This document shows positions 12,772-21,102 of a stretch of 64,000 nt of DNA, piece after piece. Positions within the stretch are counted from its first letter, which is position 1, and each line of letters begins with the position of its first letter. The stretch lies in the NCBI GenBank assembly GCA_003116975.1, contig BGKB01000001.1, positions 496,001 to 560,000 on the forward strand, in the 5' to 3' direction. The notes beneath the pieces were generated by a model. That model did no database searches. It saw only the letters and a list, made by a program, of their open reading frames with translations, and was not told the DNA's origin. Made by a program: the position numbers and the translations under genes. Source of the stretch: Aurantiochytrium sp. KH105 (lineage: Eukaryota; Sar; Bigyra; Thraustochytrida; Thraustochytriidae).

Positions 12772-14451
12772 TTAGGCAGACGGGGTGATCTTGCCCTCAT
12801 CCGTCTCATCACGGCCGAACTTCTCGCCGAGGAACTCGCGACCGCCCTTGCGCCAGTACCAGTAGAAGATGCCGATGTGGGCGATGATGAAGAAGAGAAG
12901 ACCAATGACGCCACCAGCGAGGCCACCGCCACCCATGGTGATGCCGATGCTCACACCCAGGAAGAAGCCAGGGTACACGAGGAAGAGCATGAAGATGTAA
13001 AAGATGGGGAAGGCCTTGAAGAGAGCAGCGAGGTCACCAAGACGGCGAGCGGCGCCAACGGGAATCTGGCGGACCTTGGGAATCGGGTAGAACATGATCA
13101 CACCAAAGACGTTGAAGAGCACGTGGGCCATGGCGAGCTGAAATCCAGCGGCGCTGGAGCCAACGAGCGAGGCCAGCACGCCAGTGAGAGTCGTTCCAAT
13201 GTTAGCTCCGAGCGTGAGCGGGAGCATGCCCTCGAGAGTGAGCGTGCCCATGGCGACGAGCGGGGTGAGAGTCGAGGTGGTGATCGACGACGACTGCACA
13301 AAGACGGTGATGCCGCAGCCAACAAGGATGGCGAGGTAGCCGTTCATGTTGAGAGCCTTCTGGAGAACCTCCTCGGCCGTACCGCGAACAGCAATGCCAA
13401 GAAGCTTGACCATGGCGAGGAGAGAGACAATGAGCATGACGAGAGAGAGAAGAAGAGTCACCCAGCCGGCAGACGTCTGCATGCCAGCATCGTAGAACAC
13501 ACCAGCCTTGTTGAGCTTGTAGCTGTCAAAGTGCTCCTGGGCGGCCGTGAGGATGGTCGAGTTGACGCCGATCACTTCCGTTCCGATGTCGTACGTGCAG
13601 TACTCGAACTTGGCCTTGGCCTTCTTGGAAGCCGTGACAGTCTCGTTGGTCTCATCGTCAATCCAGGTGTCACCACAGTTGGTCTCGAAGACAGCAAGGC
13701 CGCTCTTGGCGCAGCGCTTCTGCGAGAACTTGTGCGCGTGGCACTCCATGGCACCTTCGTCCTCATAGCAGAGGAAGTCCTGGCAGAGCTCGAGCGACGG
13801 GCGGCCGTACGCAAAGTCCTTGATGACGTCCTTGTCGACGGAGATGATGCGCTTCGAGATCTCGGCCGTGATGATCTTGAGGGGGCCCTCCCACTTCTCG
13901 CAGTTGTCGCCGGTGCAAGCGGTAAAGCTCTTGGCGATAGCCTCCGTGATGAGGAAGAGGATGCCACCGTTGCCGCCGTTGATGGCCGAAGAGATGGCCT
14001 CGACAGGCAGCCAGAAGCACACGTTCATGTAGTTGAACATGTCGTGGACGGTGGCGCCGGAAAAGCCACGGCGGTACTGCTCCTTGTCACCGACAAAGCC
14101 GAGCGACACAATCGTGTTGGTCACCGAGGTACCGATGTTGGCGCCGAAGACCATGGGGATACCGGTGGAGACTTCGAGGACACCAGCGCCAGCAGCGGCG
14201 ACAATGATGGAGGTGGTGGTGGACGAAGACTGCACGAGGACGGTGGCGAGGATACCGACCATGAGGCCGGCGATCGGGTTGGAGACGGCGCTGAAGAGCG
14301 TACCGGCGGAGTCACCGGCGATGACCTTGAAGCCATCGCCGAGAAGGGCGAGGCCGACGAGGAACCAGTAGAGAAAGAAGAGCACGCCGACAAAGAGGCC
14401 AAAGCCCTTGGCGACGCCCTGGGGCGTAATGTTGGCTAGGATGTTGGCCAT
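12772..14451 (-). CDS. Na+/phosphate cotransporter, SLC34-like (copy 1)
   Basis: A 559-residue polytopic membrane protein of the Na/Pi-II cotransporter family (PF02690), expected to import inorganic phosphate with Na+. It has the two inverted repeats of the family: ATVLVQSSSTTTSIIVAAAG followed by VFGANIGTSVTNTIVS, and VFVQSSSITTSTLTPLVAMG followed by TLGANIGTTLTG. The QSSS motifs form the substrate site in SLC34. A long Cys-containing loop (about residues 170-280) separates the halves and should face outward. The C-terminus is short and charged. It starts at ATG 14451 with no intron. A second copy over 90% identical lies at 19341-21017 in the same orientation, with the SCLY-AlaX gene between them. 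Confidence 0.93.
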   Translation of the reverse strand: MANILANITPQGVAKGFGLFVGVLFFLYWFLVGLALLGDGFKVIAGDSAGTLFSAVSNPIAGLMVGILATVLVQSSSTTTSIIVAAAGAGVLEVSTGIPMVFGANIGTSVTNTIVSLGFVGDKEQYRRGFSGATVHDMFNYMNVCFWLPVEAISSAINGGNGGILFLITEAIAKSFTACTGDNCEKWEGPLKIITAEISKRIISVDKDVIKDFAYGRPSLELCQDFLCYEDEGAMECHAHKFSQKRCAKSGLAVFETNCGDTWIDDETNETVTASKKAKAKFEYCTYDIGTEVIGVNSTILTAAQEHFDSYKLNKAGVFYDAGMQTSAGWVTLLLSLVMLIVSLLAMVKLLGIAVRGTAEEVLQKALNMNGYLAILVGCGITVFVQSSSITTSTLTPLVAMGTLTLEGMLPLTLGANIGTTLTGVLASLVGSSAAGFQLAMAHVLFNVFGVIMFYPIPKVRQIPVGAARRLGDLAALFKAFPIFYIFMLFLVYPGFFLGVSIGITMGGGGLAGGVIGLLFFIIAHIGIFYWYWRKGGREFLGEKFGRDETDEGKITPSA

Positions 14452-14513
14452 GATGCTAGGTTGCTTTCCGCTGAGCTGGGCTGCTGTTGCTCACTTGGTC
14501 ACTTGCTTGCTTT

Positions 14514-16448: not shown

Positions 16449-18957
16449 TTACTCTTCGTCGTCAACCGCATATGATATGCGAAGATTGCCCTTTTTGCTC
16501 TGCAGCTTGCGAATGCGCACGGCGCCAATTTCGCTGGTGTTCTTGACGTGTGTGCCTCCGCATGGGCAGCCTCGATCACCGCCAACGAGAACAAGGCGGA
16601 TATCTTTGGCATCGTCGATGCCATCAGACGACGGGGCAAGACCGTCGAGGCAGTACTCGCCGGCCTCGGCAATGCGAGTTTGCAAAACGCGAGTGGGGAT
16701 GGCCTGTTGAATGAGAGCGTTGGCATGCTTCTCAACAGCATCTTGAAGAGCGGCGCGCTCCGCGGCAGGTACAGAGCCTGCATAATCGACTGATGGACCA
16801 GAAGGAAAGTGATACCCCTTGCTGGGGAGCAGAGAGCAACCAGCCAGGCGCATGGCTTGGTCGAGAACATGTCCCGCGCTGTGAATGCGCGCGTGAAATC
16901 GGCGCTTTCGCTCGTCAATGACGAGATTCACCTGGCTTCCGACAACAATCGCCGAAGGTTGCGATCCCTGGAATTCTCCAAGGTGCCGAACGCACCCATT
17001 GGCATCTTTCTCGACGTGGTCCACAACAAATCGCGCCCCGGACGCGACGTCGATGATTTCGCCAACATCGGAAGGCTGGCCGCCGCCCTGTGGGTGGAAA
17101 ATCGTCGCGTTCAGAATGATGCAGAAACGCTCGTTCGTCGGGGTGGAGGGATCATCAGTCTTCGGTGCAGACTCAACGGCTTCGACCTTGAGCACTTGCG
17201 CATCGTCCATCTTGAAGCAATGCGTGTCGTCCATATATGCGAGACGCGTGGGCGGCGTAGAGCCTTGAAGATCAGCATCAGATTCACTGTCAGGTTCAGG
17301 GCCGCGTGCTTCTGACGTTGAAAGCGTAACCACCGCATCGACAACCGCTTTGGCCGCCACCGAGACATCTTCCGGGGTGGAGAAACGACCCACCGAGAGG
17401 CGTAACGTGCCTGGAGCAAACGCTGGCTCGAGCCCCATCGCAGAGAGTACGTGCGAGGTTTTGACGCCTCCAGTATGGCACGCAGCACCAGCACTACAAG
17501 AGACGTCACGAGCAAGGCGTTCGAGCAAGCTTGGGCTTTCGATGTCTTTGAATGAGATGGAAAGTGTGTTCGGCAAGCGCTCGGAAGGATGGCCGTTCAC
17601 TTTGGTTTCTACGCCAACTTTTGCGCATCCGTCTTCGATGGCTTTCTGCAAATTGTCTCGCAGTTTTGCGAGGTGGGGGCCTTCAGCATCGATGCCTTCC
17701 CGAACGAGTTGGCAAGCGCGACCCAGAGCGGTGGCAAGAAGGACGTTTTCCGTTCCTGCGCGAAGACCTCGTTCATGCGATGCGCCGAGCATGAACTTGG
17801 CTAAACGCGCGTCTACCCCTTTGCGAATATAGAGTGCGCCGATGCCCTTGGGGCCGTAAATTTTGTGTCCTGCGAGTGTCTGCAGTGTAAAGAAATGCGT
17901 CAAAGTCGTATGATTTTAGGGGGGGGGGGGGGGGGGGGGGTAAAAGCAGGTAATGGTCAAGCGAAACAGCGTTAGATTGCGAGGCGGAGAGAAACACTGG
18001 AAATTATCATCCTGCTGGCGATGATTGAGCGATGGTTCGAAAATATAAACGTACCAACATGTCGACCCCGAGGTCCTGAACATCGACAGGGATTTTTCCC
18101 ACGGCCTGACTTGCGTCTGTGTGAACAAGCACTCGGTCTCCGTGGGGTCCAGCCCGCAAACCTTGGACAATATCCTTGATTGGCTGCAGCGAACCAACTT
18201 CGTTGTTTGCAAGCATGATGGTCACGAGAACCGTCTTTTCTGTAACAGCGTCAATGACCTCTTTCGCGCTCACACGGCACGTTCCGTCCACAGGAACAGT
18301 TGTACTGGCGAATCTGTGCCGTTCCACCATGTACTTGATCGTGTCACTGACTGCGACGTGCTCGACCGCGCTAGTGACGACATGGTCTGGGGCTTCTCCA
18401 CTGTTAGACGTAGTTCCCTTTTCTTGCGAGTCCTGGAAGTCGAATCTGGCTGCCCACAGAGCACCTTGGATCGCATGATTGATGGACTCTGTTCCACCAC
18501 TCGTAAAGAGGATCTCTGTGGGATCTTGCGCATTGATGGCCTCCGCAACTTGCGTGCGTGCGCGTTCTAGCAAAGTTTTCGCCGACGTCCCGTACACATG
18601 TCCAGAGGATGGGTTTCTGTAGTAGCAGCACGAGTCGCGCCAACGAGGCGGTAGATGACGGAAGCATGAGCGTAAGCACGAGCACACGTGTTAGAGACCT
18701 ATTCTCCAACTACCTCCTCTTATCCTCTTTTCTTCTTTGCCAAGTTTTGCGGTCGCCCGTGGTTGGGTCCTCGCCAAGCCATGCCAAACCAAACGCCATC
18801 CCAAACTTTAGCAGACTTTGCGCACTTACCCCCACGCGAGTTCCGGCGCAAGTACCTCAGCGGGGTCATGGCGCGTCTGCAGCAGGCTTGCCGCGCTCGC
18901 ACAGACCTCGGGTGCAAGCGGAGTCGTCGCGTTGTAGTCCAAGTACACTGGCGCCAT
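16449..18957 (-). CDS. selenocysteine lyase/cysteine desulfurase fused to AlaX tRNA-editing domain, three exons
   Basis: Exons 18957-18830, 18616-18055 and 17879-16449 join in frame to 706 residues. Introns 18829-18617 (GTAAGT donor) and 18054-17880 (GTACGT) are GT-AG. The N-terminal ~430 residues are a PLP-dependent class V aminotransferase: VYLDYNATTPLAPEV, WGNPSSGHVYG across the first junction, LFTSGGTESINHAI, VHTDASQAVGK, and LAGHKIYGPKG with the PLP lysine. The catalytic Cys lies in SAGAACHTG, closer to selenocysteine lyase (SCLY) than to NifS/IscS. Such enzymes release Se or S plus alanine. The C-terminal ~230 residues are an AlaX-type aminoacyl-tRNA deacylase: HPQGGGQPSDVGEI, HSAGH (HxxxH) and CGGTH (CxxxH), so all four zinc ligands are present. 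AlaX hydrolyses Ser- or Gly-tRNA(Ala). No targeting peptide is obvious. The joint function is inference. Confidence 0.9.
17919..17940 (+). repeat. 22-base poly-G run inside an intron
   Basis: A run of 22 G on the plus strand reads as poly-C on the transcribed strand, about 40 bases before the acceptor of SCLY-AlaX intron 2. It would extend the polypyrimidine tract. Length may be uncertain because homopolymers are error-prone. Confidence 0.9.
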
Positions 18958-19340: not shown

Positions 19341-21017
19341 TTAGGCAGACGGGGTGATCTTGCCCTCATTCTCCTCATCACGGCCGAACTTCTCGCCGAG
19401 GAACTCGCGACCGCCCTTGCGCCAGTACCAGTAGAAGATGCCGATGTGGGCGATGATGAAGAAGAGAAGACCAATGACGCCACCAGCGAGGCCACCGCCA
19501 CCCATGGTGATGCCGATGCTCACACCCAGGAAGAAGCCAGGGTACACGAGGAAGAGCATGAAGATGTAAAAGATGGGGAAGGCCTTGAAGAGAGCAGCGA
19601 GGTCACCAAGACGGCGAGCGGCGCCAATGGGAATCTGGCGGACCTTGGGAATCGGGTAGAAGAGAACCACGCCAAAGACGTTGAAGAGCACGTGGGCCAT
19701 GGCGAGCTGGAAGCCATTGGCGCTGTCACCGACGAGCGAGGCCAGAATACCCGTGAGGGTGGTTCCCAGGTTGGCACCGAGCGTGAGCGGGAGCATGCCC
19801 TCGAGAGTGAGCGTGCCCATGGCGACGAGCGGGGTGAGAGTCGAGGTGGTGATCGACGATGACTGCACAAACATGGTCACACCGCAGCCAACAAGGATGG
19901 CGAGGTAGCCGTTCATGTTGAGAGCCTTCTGGAGGACCTCCTCAGCGGCGCCGCGAACAGCAATGCCAAGAAGCTTGACCATGGCAAGGAGAGAGACAAT
20001 GAGCATGACGAGAGAGAGAAGAAGAGTCACCCAGCCGGCAGACGTCTGCATGCCAGCATCGTAGAACACACCAGCCTTGTTGAGCTTGTAGCTGTCAAAG
20101 TGCTGCTGAGCGGCCGTGAGGATGGTTGAGTTGACGCCGATCACATCCGTACCGCTGTCGTACGTGCAGTACTCGAACTTGGCCTTGGCCTTCTTGGAAG
20201 CCGTGACAGTCTCGTTGGTCTCATCGTCAATCCAGGTGTCACCGCAGTTGGTCTCGAAGACAGCAAGGCCGCTGGAGGCGCAGCGCTTCTGCGAGAACTT
20301 GTGCGCGTGGCACTCCATGACACCTTCGTCCTCATAGCAGAGGAAGTCCTGGCAGAGCTCGAGCGACGGGCGGCCGTACGCAAAGTCCTTGATGACGTCC
20401 TTGTCGACGGAGATGATGCGCTTCGAGATCTCGGCAGTGATGACCTTGAGGGGGCCCTCCCAGTCCTCGCAACCAGACGACGAGGTCGCCTCGTCACAGG
20501 CCTCGAAGCTCTTGGCGATAGCCTCAGTGATGAGGAACATGATACCACCGTTGCCGCCGTTGATGGCCGAAGAGATGGCCTCAAGGGGCAGCCACAGGCA
20601 CACGTTCATGTAGTTGAACATGTCGTGGACGGTGGCGCCCGCAAAGCCGCGGCGGTACTGCTCCTTGTCACCGACAAAGCCGAGCGACACAATCGTGTTG
20701 GTCACCGAGGTACCGATGTTGGCGCCGAAGACCATGGGGATACCGGTGGAGACTTTGAGGACACCAGCGCCAGCAGCGGCGACGATGATAGAGGTGGTGG
20801 TGGACGAAGACTGCACGAGGACGGTGGCAAGGATACCGACCATGAGGCCGGCGACCGGGTTGGAGACGGCGCTGAAGAGAGTACCGGCGGAGTCACCGGC
20901 GATGACCTTGAAGCCATCGCCGAGAAGGGCGAGGCCGACGAGGAACCAGTAGAGAAAGAAGAGCACGCCGACAAAGAGGCCAAAGCCCTTGGCGACGCCC
21001 TGAGGCGTGAAAGCCAT
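19341..21017 (-). CDS. Na+/phosphate cotransporter, SLC34-like (copy 2)
   Basis: A 558-residue paralogue of the 12772-14451 gene with the same architecture and both QSSS repeats. Differences cluster at the extreme N-terminus (MAFTPQG versus MANILANITPQG), in the large loop (CDEATSSSGCEDWEG versus CTGDNCEKWEG) and in conservative I/V/L swaps within membrane segments. Long stretches are almost identical even at synonymous sites, which points to recent duplication or gene conversion. Similarity continues about 25-40 bases into the 5' leader (GGTTGCTTTCCG) and starts near the stop codon on the 3' side. It starts at ATG 21017 with no intron. Differential expression or affinity is possible but not shown by sequence. 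Confidence 0.93.
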   Translation of the reverse strand: MAFTPQGVAKGFGLFVGVLFFLYWFLVGLALLGDGFKVIAGDSAGTLFSAVSNPVAGLMVGILATVLVQSSSTTTSIIVAAAGAGVLKVSTGIPMVFGANIGTSVTNTIVSLGFVGDKEQYRRGFAGATVHDMFNYMNVCLWLPLEAISSAINGGNGGIMFLITEAIAKSFEACDEATSSSGCEDWEGPLKVITAEISKRIISVDKDVIKDFAYGRPSLELCQDFLCYEDEGVMECHAHKFSQKRCASSGLAVFETNCGDTWIDDETNETVTASKKAKAKFEYCTYDSGTDVIGVNSTILTAAQQHFDSYKLNKAGVFYDAGMQTSAGWVTLLLSLVMLIVSLLAMVKLLGIAVRGAAEEVLQKALNMNGYLAILVGCGVTMFVQSSSITTSTLTPLVAMGTLTLEGMLPLTLGANLGTTLTGILASLVGDSANGFQLAMAHVLFNVFGVVLFYPIPKVRQIPIGAARRLGDLAALFKAFPIFYIFMLFLVYPGFFLGVSIGITMGGGGLAGGVIGLLFFIIAHIGIFYWYWRKGGREFLGEKFGRDEENEGKITPSA

Positions 21018-21102
21018 GTTGCTGGGTTGCTTTCCGACGAGCTAGGCTGCTTATGCTTGCTTGTTTGCTTGCTAGTTGCTAGCTTGGAGCTTGCGTTTTG
21101 GT

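Follow-up and report, generated by a model that had tools for sequence, protein, structure and literature searches.

What is the product of a minus-strand locus of Aurantiochytrium sp. KH105 in which a selenocysteine lyase-like enzyme appears to run on into a tRNA-editing domain of the AlaX type? We addressed this question in a window of 64,000 nucleotides, the whole stretch of DNA that was analysed, taken from an assembly of 76 Mb in 367 contigs. By sequence, both halves look like known kinds of enzyme, and it is their union that occurs in none of the prokaryotic loci examined.

Gene structure and the second copy

The fusion gene lies on the minus strand at 18957-16449 and consists of three exons and two GT-AG introns, with the splice sites GTAAGTGC...TACTACAG and GTACGTTT...CACTGCAG. 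As a sequence-only reading of this DNA had claimed, a PLP lyase and an AlaX domain are joined in one spliced frame: exons 1-3 together encode 706 aa without an internal stop, and the exon 3 frame alone holds Pfam domains of both enzymes, all above their cut-offs (Aminotran_5 61.6, tRNA-synt_2c 35.4 and tRNA_SAD 38.1 bits). The protein is laid out as a class V PLP lyase (residues 1-417), an acidic linker (418-440) and an AlaX-M-type domain (about 441-706). The parts of the gene are as follows.

18830..18957, minus strand: exon 1, which holds the start codon (18957-18955) and aligns to the second copy with 0 gap columns
18617..18829, minus strand: intron 1, GT-AG, 85.4% identity between copies
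18055..18616, minus strand: exon 2, PLP domain, Aminotran_5 106.6 bits
17880..18054, minus strand: intron 2, GT-AG, holding a run of 22 G on the plus strand
16449..17879, minus strand: exon 3, end of the PLP domain, linker, AlaX domain and stop, both Pfam domains lying in a single open frame
17250..17318, minus strand: acidic linker (residues 418-440), in which the copies differ by 6 bp in frame

A second copy of the gene on contig 26 encodes 704 aa with an identical architecture. Between the copies, exons 1, 2 and 3 are 96.1, 97.0 and 96.1% identical and introns 1 and 2 are 85.4 and 89.6% identical; the six exonic gap columns form a single in-frame block within the linker, and the introns contain 26 gap columns. 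The dN/dS ratio is 0.116 for the whole protein, 0.079 for the PLP part (1-417) and 0.115 for the AlaX part (441-706). Purifying selection acts on both halves. Judged from DNA alone, the exon/intron divergence pattern and the low dN/dS are what a translated two-domain gene should show.

A stop or frameshift between the halves, which the sequence-only reading had named as evidence against a fusion, is absent from the assembly. It is very unlikely that the locus yields two proteins through an internal start or alternative ends, the fusion then existing only as a reading of the gene model. Both copies do have a methionine (in YMDD) close to where the AlaX part starts, but exon 3 is open across the join in both and the indel in the linker is in frame.

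Upstream of the methionine at 18957 the frame stays open for 61 codons. Since this stretch differs between the copies by frame-changing indels, the start at 18957 is preferred, and an N-terminal extension serving as a presequence was rejected. Since no N-terminal extension is conserved, the protein is probably cytosolic. By eye, the start at 18957 has a good Kozak look.

Several minor features of the region were observed. The 22-G run in intron 2 (17919-17940 of the window) is shorter and interrupted in the second copy. Most genes looked at are present twice, on separate contigs that differ by 6-9% in the region compared, and these paired copies would represent two haplotypes or a hybrid. Two similar long minus-strand frames (12775-14490 and 19344-21041 of the window) are sodium/phosphate-cotransporter-like by eye and apparently a tandem pair.

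The AlaX half and its relatives

The C-terminal half carries the motifs listed below, so that the HxxxH and CxxxH motifs described earlier as intact are indeed present (H563/H567 and C670/H674).

16452..17249, minus strand: AlaX domain (residues 441-706; the model starts at residue 438, position 17258), from Pfam, model and Foldseek
17067..17087, minus strand: glycine motif GGGQPSD, residues 495-501, its GG, Q and D columns invariant in 32 rows
16869..16883, minus strand: HxxxH, H563 and H567, each His invariant across the 32 rows, in a stretch not used as a search pattern
16548..16562, minus strand: CxxxH, C670 and H674 (CGGTH), invariant in 32 rows

The alignment contains the fusion and 31 other rows, taken from 80 loci (L086 was dropped for a stop), and has 17 invariant columns, including the HxxxH pair, GG, Q, D and CGGTHVKN, the last of which was itself a search pattern for the AlaX rows and is thus invariant partly by selection. 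An AlphaFold2 model of the AlaX half has a mean pLDDT of 91.3. In a Foldseek search it matches AlaX-M (2e1b) with a target-normalised TM of 0.84 and a Clostridium homologue (3kew) with 0.83, and it also matches AlaRS editing domains. The predicted structure thus shows the N-domain and editing-domain fold of AlaX-M. The AlaX query also matched "Pizza" designs, which was taken as chance.

Compared with AlaX-M proteins (2e1b, 9iuw), the AlaX half shares the predicted fold, the glycine motif, HxxxH and CxxxH. Those proteins are chains of about 215 residues, whereas the domain described here follows a lyase in one protein, as its C-terminal half, and is of the KGYHFP subfamily. The NCBIfam AlaXM model, which was built for prokaryotic proteins, gives the AlaX half 99.9 bits, below its cut-off of 300.

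In a 34-row tree the AlaX half groups with L032 (Micrarchaeota) and L033 (Patescibacteria) at 100/100. The AlaRS domain of the own genome and an own-genome protein on C88/C59, which we take to be an AARSD1-like AlaX, fall apart from it, the latter on a long branch that the tree program flagged as unsure. The AARSD1-like protein likewise contains tRNA-synt_2c and tRNA_SAD with HxxxH and CxxxH, but is 29% identical, sits on a different long branch and has no lyase domain in its frame. An orthology of the fusion AlaX with AARSD1 is unsupported, the AARSD1-like row standing elsewhere in the tree.

A subfamily profile built from the fusion AlaX, L032 and L033 exceeds 180 bits, a cut that we set ourselves, in 6 of 239, 1 of 398 and 2 of 301 genomes, where one of the six and one of the two are profile members themselves. 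Among the matches listed, the others reach at most 108 bits in the 239- and 398-genome sets; the matches listed for the 301-genome set are those with E values up to 1e-40. The fusion AlaX belongs to a KGYHFP-motif subfamily that is rare in the genomes searched.

One member of this subfamily, matching the profile at 188 bits, is found in a patescibacterium (L179:7353-10361), where a class II (D, K, N) synthetase domain, a LysRS by eye, is joined to DUF2000 and AlaX in a frame of 1002 aa. As in the fusion, AlaX is C-terminal in a multidomain protein, but the partner is synthetase-like rather than a lyase. Because the domain also stands behind a LysRS-like-DUF2000 protein, the KGYHFP AlaX domain may simply be prone to fusion.

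We then asked whether the lyase-AlaX union occurs elsewhere. Among the AlaX-like loci examined, the 80 best of 547 relatives with flanks of up to 6 kb on each side, no lyase-AlaX fusion or neighbourhood was found; the match in L061, the sole desulfurase-holding locus of the 80, is AlaRS in an iscS cluster when read by eye. None of the nine KGYHFP-subfamily loci contains a desulfurase within the 3 to 20 kb searched per locus, a local absence. Conversely, the 51 loci retrieved with the PLP half, each of about 4 kb or less, contain no AlaX, and none of four lyase matches in viral_contigs extends into the AlaX part. The union of class V and tRNA_SAD domains, for which the sequence-only reading had proposed an architecture search, was met in none of the prokaryotic loci examined, the own genome being the eukaryote covered. 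That reading had also known of no characterised protein with this arrangement, which agrees with what we found in these loci and in the open-licence papers searched, where no earlier report of the pairing was met. The fusion may nevertheless be common in a protist group or known in other databases.

Family placement of the lyase half

The PLP lysine and cysteine motifs noted earlier are both present in the N-terminal half (K236 in LAGHK and C364 in AACH).

17862..17864, minus strand: Lys236, PLP lysine, in LAGHK, a lysine in all 39 aligned rows
17478..17480, minus strand: Cys364, catalytic cysteine (human C388), in AACH, followed by His365 (human H389), from motif and alignment
18355..18357, minus strand: Val130, at the position of human SCLY Asp146, from the alignment

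The lyase half is 38.5% identical to human SCLY, 36.9% to human NFS1 and up to 39% to the bacterial lyases of a first set, and on these sequence comparisons identity alone does not separate the SCLY from the NFS1 family. In a 25-row tree, from which seven weak or partial rows had been left out beforehand, it groups with mammalian SCLY (support 75/77). The 39 rows of a larger tree were hand-picked: 16 came from the 32 earlier rows and 23 from the 51 new loci, and many of its bacterial lyases had been fetched for their resemblance to the query. Here an NFS1-containing group of 15 rows splits off at 94/98, and the remaining 24 rows include the fusion, SCLY and each of the six SelD-fused rows. Placement of the lyase half as an NFS1 paralogue was rejected in both trees (p-AU 0.004 with 25 rows and 4e-10 with 39 rows). 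In the 39-row tree the fusion and mammalian SCLY group at 79/66 with one bacterial row, L187, inside; a strict clade of fusion and SCLY was not rejected (p-AU 0.167). One exclusive clade of the fusion, SCLY and the SelD-fused lyases was rejected (p-AU 2e-15).

The row inside this group allows a different function to be considered for the lyase half, namely some other C-S or C-Se cleavage, as in ergothioneine or selenoneine synthesis, since L187 adjoins an ORF that resembles EgtD by eye. We consider this highly improbable, as it depends on one locus and on a likeness judged by eye, against which SelD is present in 6 of the 51 loci fetched with the PLP half.

Residues were compared in the same 39 rows. 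A histidine directly follows the catalytic cysteine in 24/24 rows outside the NFS1-containing group and in 0/15 inside it, and a long insert before the active-site histidine is shared by the fusion and both SCLY rows and occurs in 0/36 of the remaining rows. The fusion thus resembles SCLY (human 3gzc, rat 3a9x) as a class V PLP lyase with the PLP lysine, the Cys-His pair and the long insert. It differs in its C-terminal AlaX domain, in Ala233 at the position of human V256 (H389 is kept) and in Val130, found in both gene copies, in place of Asp146; its clade support with SCLY is weak. The selenium specificity of human SCLY is attributed to Asp146 (PMC3266270). The six SelD-fused rows have Pro at this position.

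The closest bacterial relatives found, 54, 52, 51 and 50% identical, are the four best-scoring in 119 genomes of the phylum of an acidobacterium (L047), and all four are open frames of 748-767 aa that run on into SelD, with AIRS and AIRS_C confirmed by Pfam in one of them (L181). Two of the three best lyase relatives in 400 genomes of Chloroflexi (the phylum of L075) are also SelD-fused, and the single match at the cut-off used in 398 genomes of the phylum of a betaproteobacterium (L059) is a locus without SelD. Six bacterial lyase-SelD fusions were observed (L181, L182, L183, L184, L212 and L214). This fusion type (NifS-SelD, or NifS-SPS) is already in print, with two prokaryotic instances named (PMC4561486). 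It shares with our protein a lyase of up to 54% identity, a C-terminal fused partner, and Ala and His at the V256 and H389 positions (6/6), but its partner is SelD, not AlaX.

The own genome contains the selenocysteine machinery. Two tRNA-Sec genes score 73.5 and 70.2 bits over a cut-off of 47, which 5 of 14 control genomes also pass, and a third match lies below it (42.4); ARAGORN gives the anticodon tca. SelD scores 276 bits (cut-off 125, passed by 2 of 14 controls) and SecS 407.7 bits (cut-off 21.1). With tRNA-Sec, SelD and SecS all above their cut-offs, the organism appears to use selenocysteine. The SelD genes form long open frames on contigs C78 and C170 (L142 and L143), both of which also carry tRNA-Sec. 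In L142 a part that is flavin/NADH-dehydrogenase-like by eye precedes SelD in the open frame, a fusion type that is in print (PMC4561486).

When the PLP half was compared with the own genome (10/10 candidates scored), the eight matches were the fusion exons, in two copies, and, also in two copies, a gene that we take to be NFS1. A Pfam search of the genome scored 12 of 36 candidates, and a further SCLY is possible.

Because grouping with NFS1 is rejected, the relatives are partly SelD-fused and the genome has the selenocysteine machinery, a selenocysteine lyase is favoured over a cysteine desulfurase of the mitochondrial type. This identity is better supported but not proven, since support for a link to mammalian SCLY is weak (79/66) and Asp146 is replaced by Val. 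Of the earlier label "selenocysteine lyase/cysteine desulfurase", the SCLY side has thus gained, and the lyase half would stand apart from NFS1, on the selenocysteine-lyase/SelD-linked side of the family.

The missing Asp146 is also what could be expected if the lyase half served tRNA thiolation as a cysteine desulfurase and the AlaX half acted mainly to hold the tRNA, and the own genome does have a class V domain and a PP-loop ATPase in one frame (Aminotran_5 + ATP_bind_3). We nevertheless regard this as quite unlikely: the AlaX catalytic motifs are kept, that half is under selection, and the PLP half falls outside the NFS1-containing group. In a motif search of 17 loci with flanks of about 1.5 kb, SelD-fused loci being left out, an MnmA-like ORF was beside 0/15 loci outside that group and adjoins L206, which is inside it.

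Proposed function of the fusion

We then propose that this nuclear gene encodes a single bifunctional, probably cytosolic protein, in which a selenium/cysteine lyase is tethered to a Ser/Gly-tRNA(Ala) deacylase. We consider this reading probable as a whole; the activities, substrates, location and reason for the tether are putative. The N-terminal half would cleave selenocysteine, and perhaps also cysteine, to yield alanine and a Cys364-bound selenide or sulfide, and the selenide would feed selenophosphate synthesis. The C-terminal half would act as an AlaX-M-type zinc deacylase that hydrolyses Ser- and Gly-tRNA(Ala). These are the substrates of AlaX-M and AlaX-L, which read G3:U70, AlaX-S being without tRNA specificity (PMC11295145). 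The two reactions would be chemically independent, giving two activities on one chain, and tethering would most likely ensure that they are co-expressed and co-localised within a single translation-associated protein.

Enzymes whose genes are fused are often functional partners. The fusion may for this reason offer a link that can be tested between selenium/cysteine metabolism and tRNA proofreading, and it does so in a genome that has selenocysteine machinery. The coupling put forward by the sequence-only reading, through the alanine produced or through channelling of S or Se near tRNA, would be speculative.

It is tempting to speculate that the tether is functional, the AlaX half freeing Sec, Cys or Ser from mischarged tRNA and the lyase destroying the freed Sec or Cys, so that proofreading and salvage become one process. 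Purifying selection on both halves and the selenocysteine machinery in the genome are in line with this idea, and editing domains do become attached to Cys/Sec-type chemistry, as in the bacterial union of SepRS with a Thr editing domain (PMC8762117). However, AlaX-M and AlaX-L are reported to read G3:U70, while the own-genome tRNA-Sec, paired by eye, has G3:C70 and discriminator G; tRNA-Sec is thus not an expected AlaX substrate. A functional tether of this kind seems doubtful. We give little credence to a putative proofreading-salvage enzyme that would strip Ser, Cys or Sec from tRNA, destroy free Cys or Sec and pass the selenium back to SelD. If it were true, translation quality control and selenium recycling would physically be one process. 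We therefore retain the bifunctional lyase-deacylase with independent reactions as the preferred reading.

In the same genome, another lyase-type domain was observed joined to what may be a tRNA-modifying domain. At C64:284873-286153 (L021), one long frame encodes both a class V PLP domain and a PP-loop ATPase (ATP_bind_3, TtcA-like by eye); L021 also has a copy on C295, the second domain having been scanned in C64.
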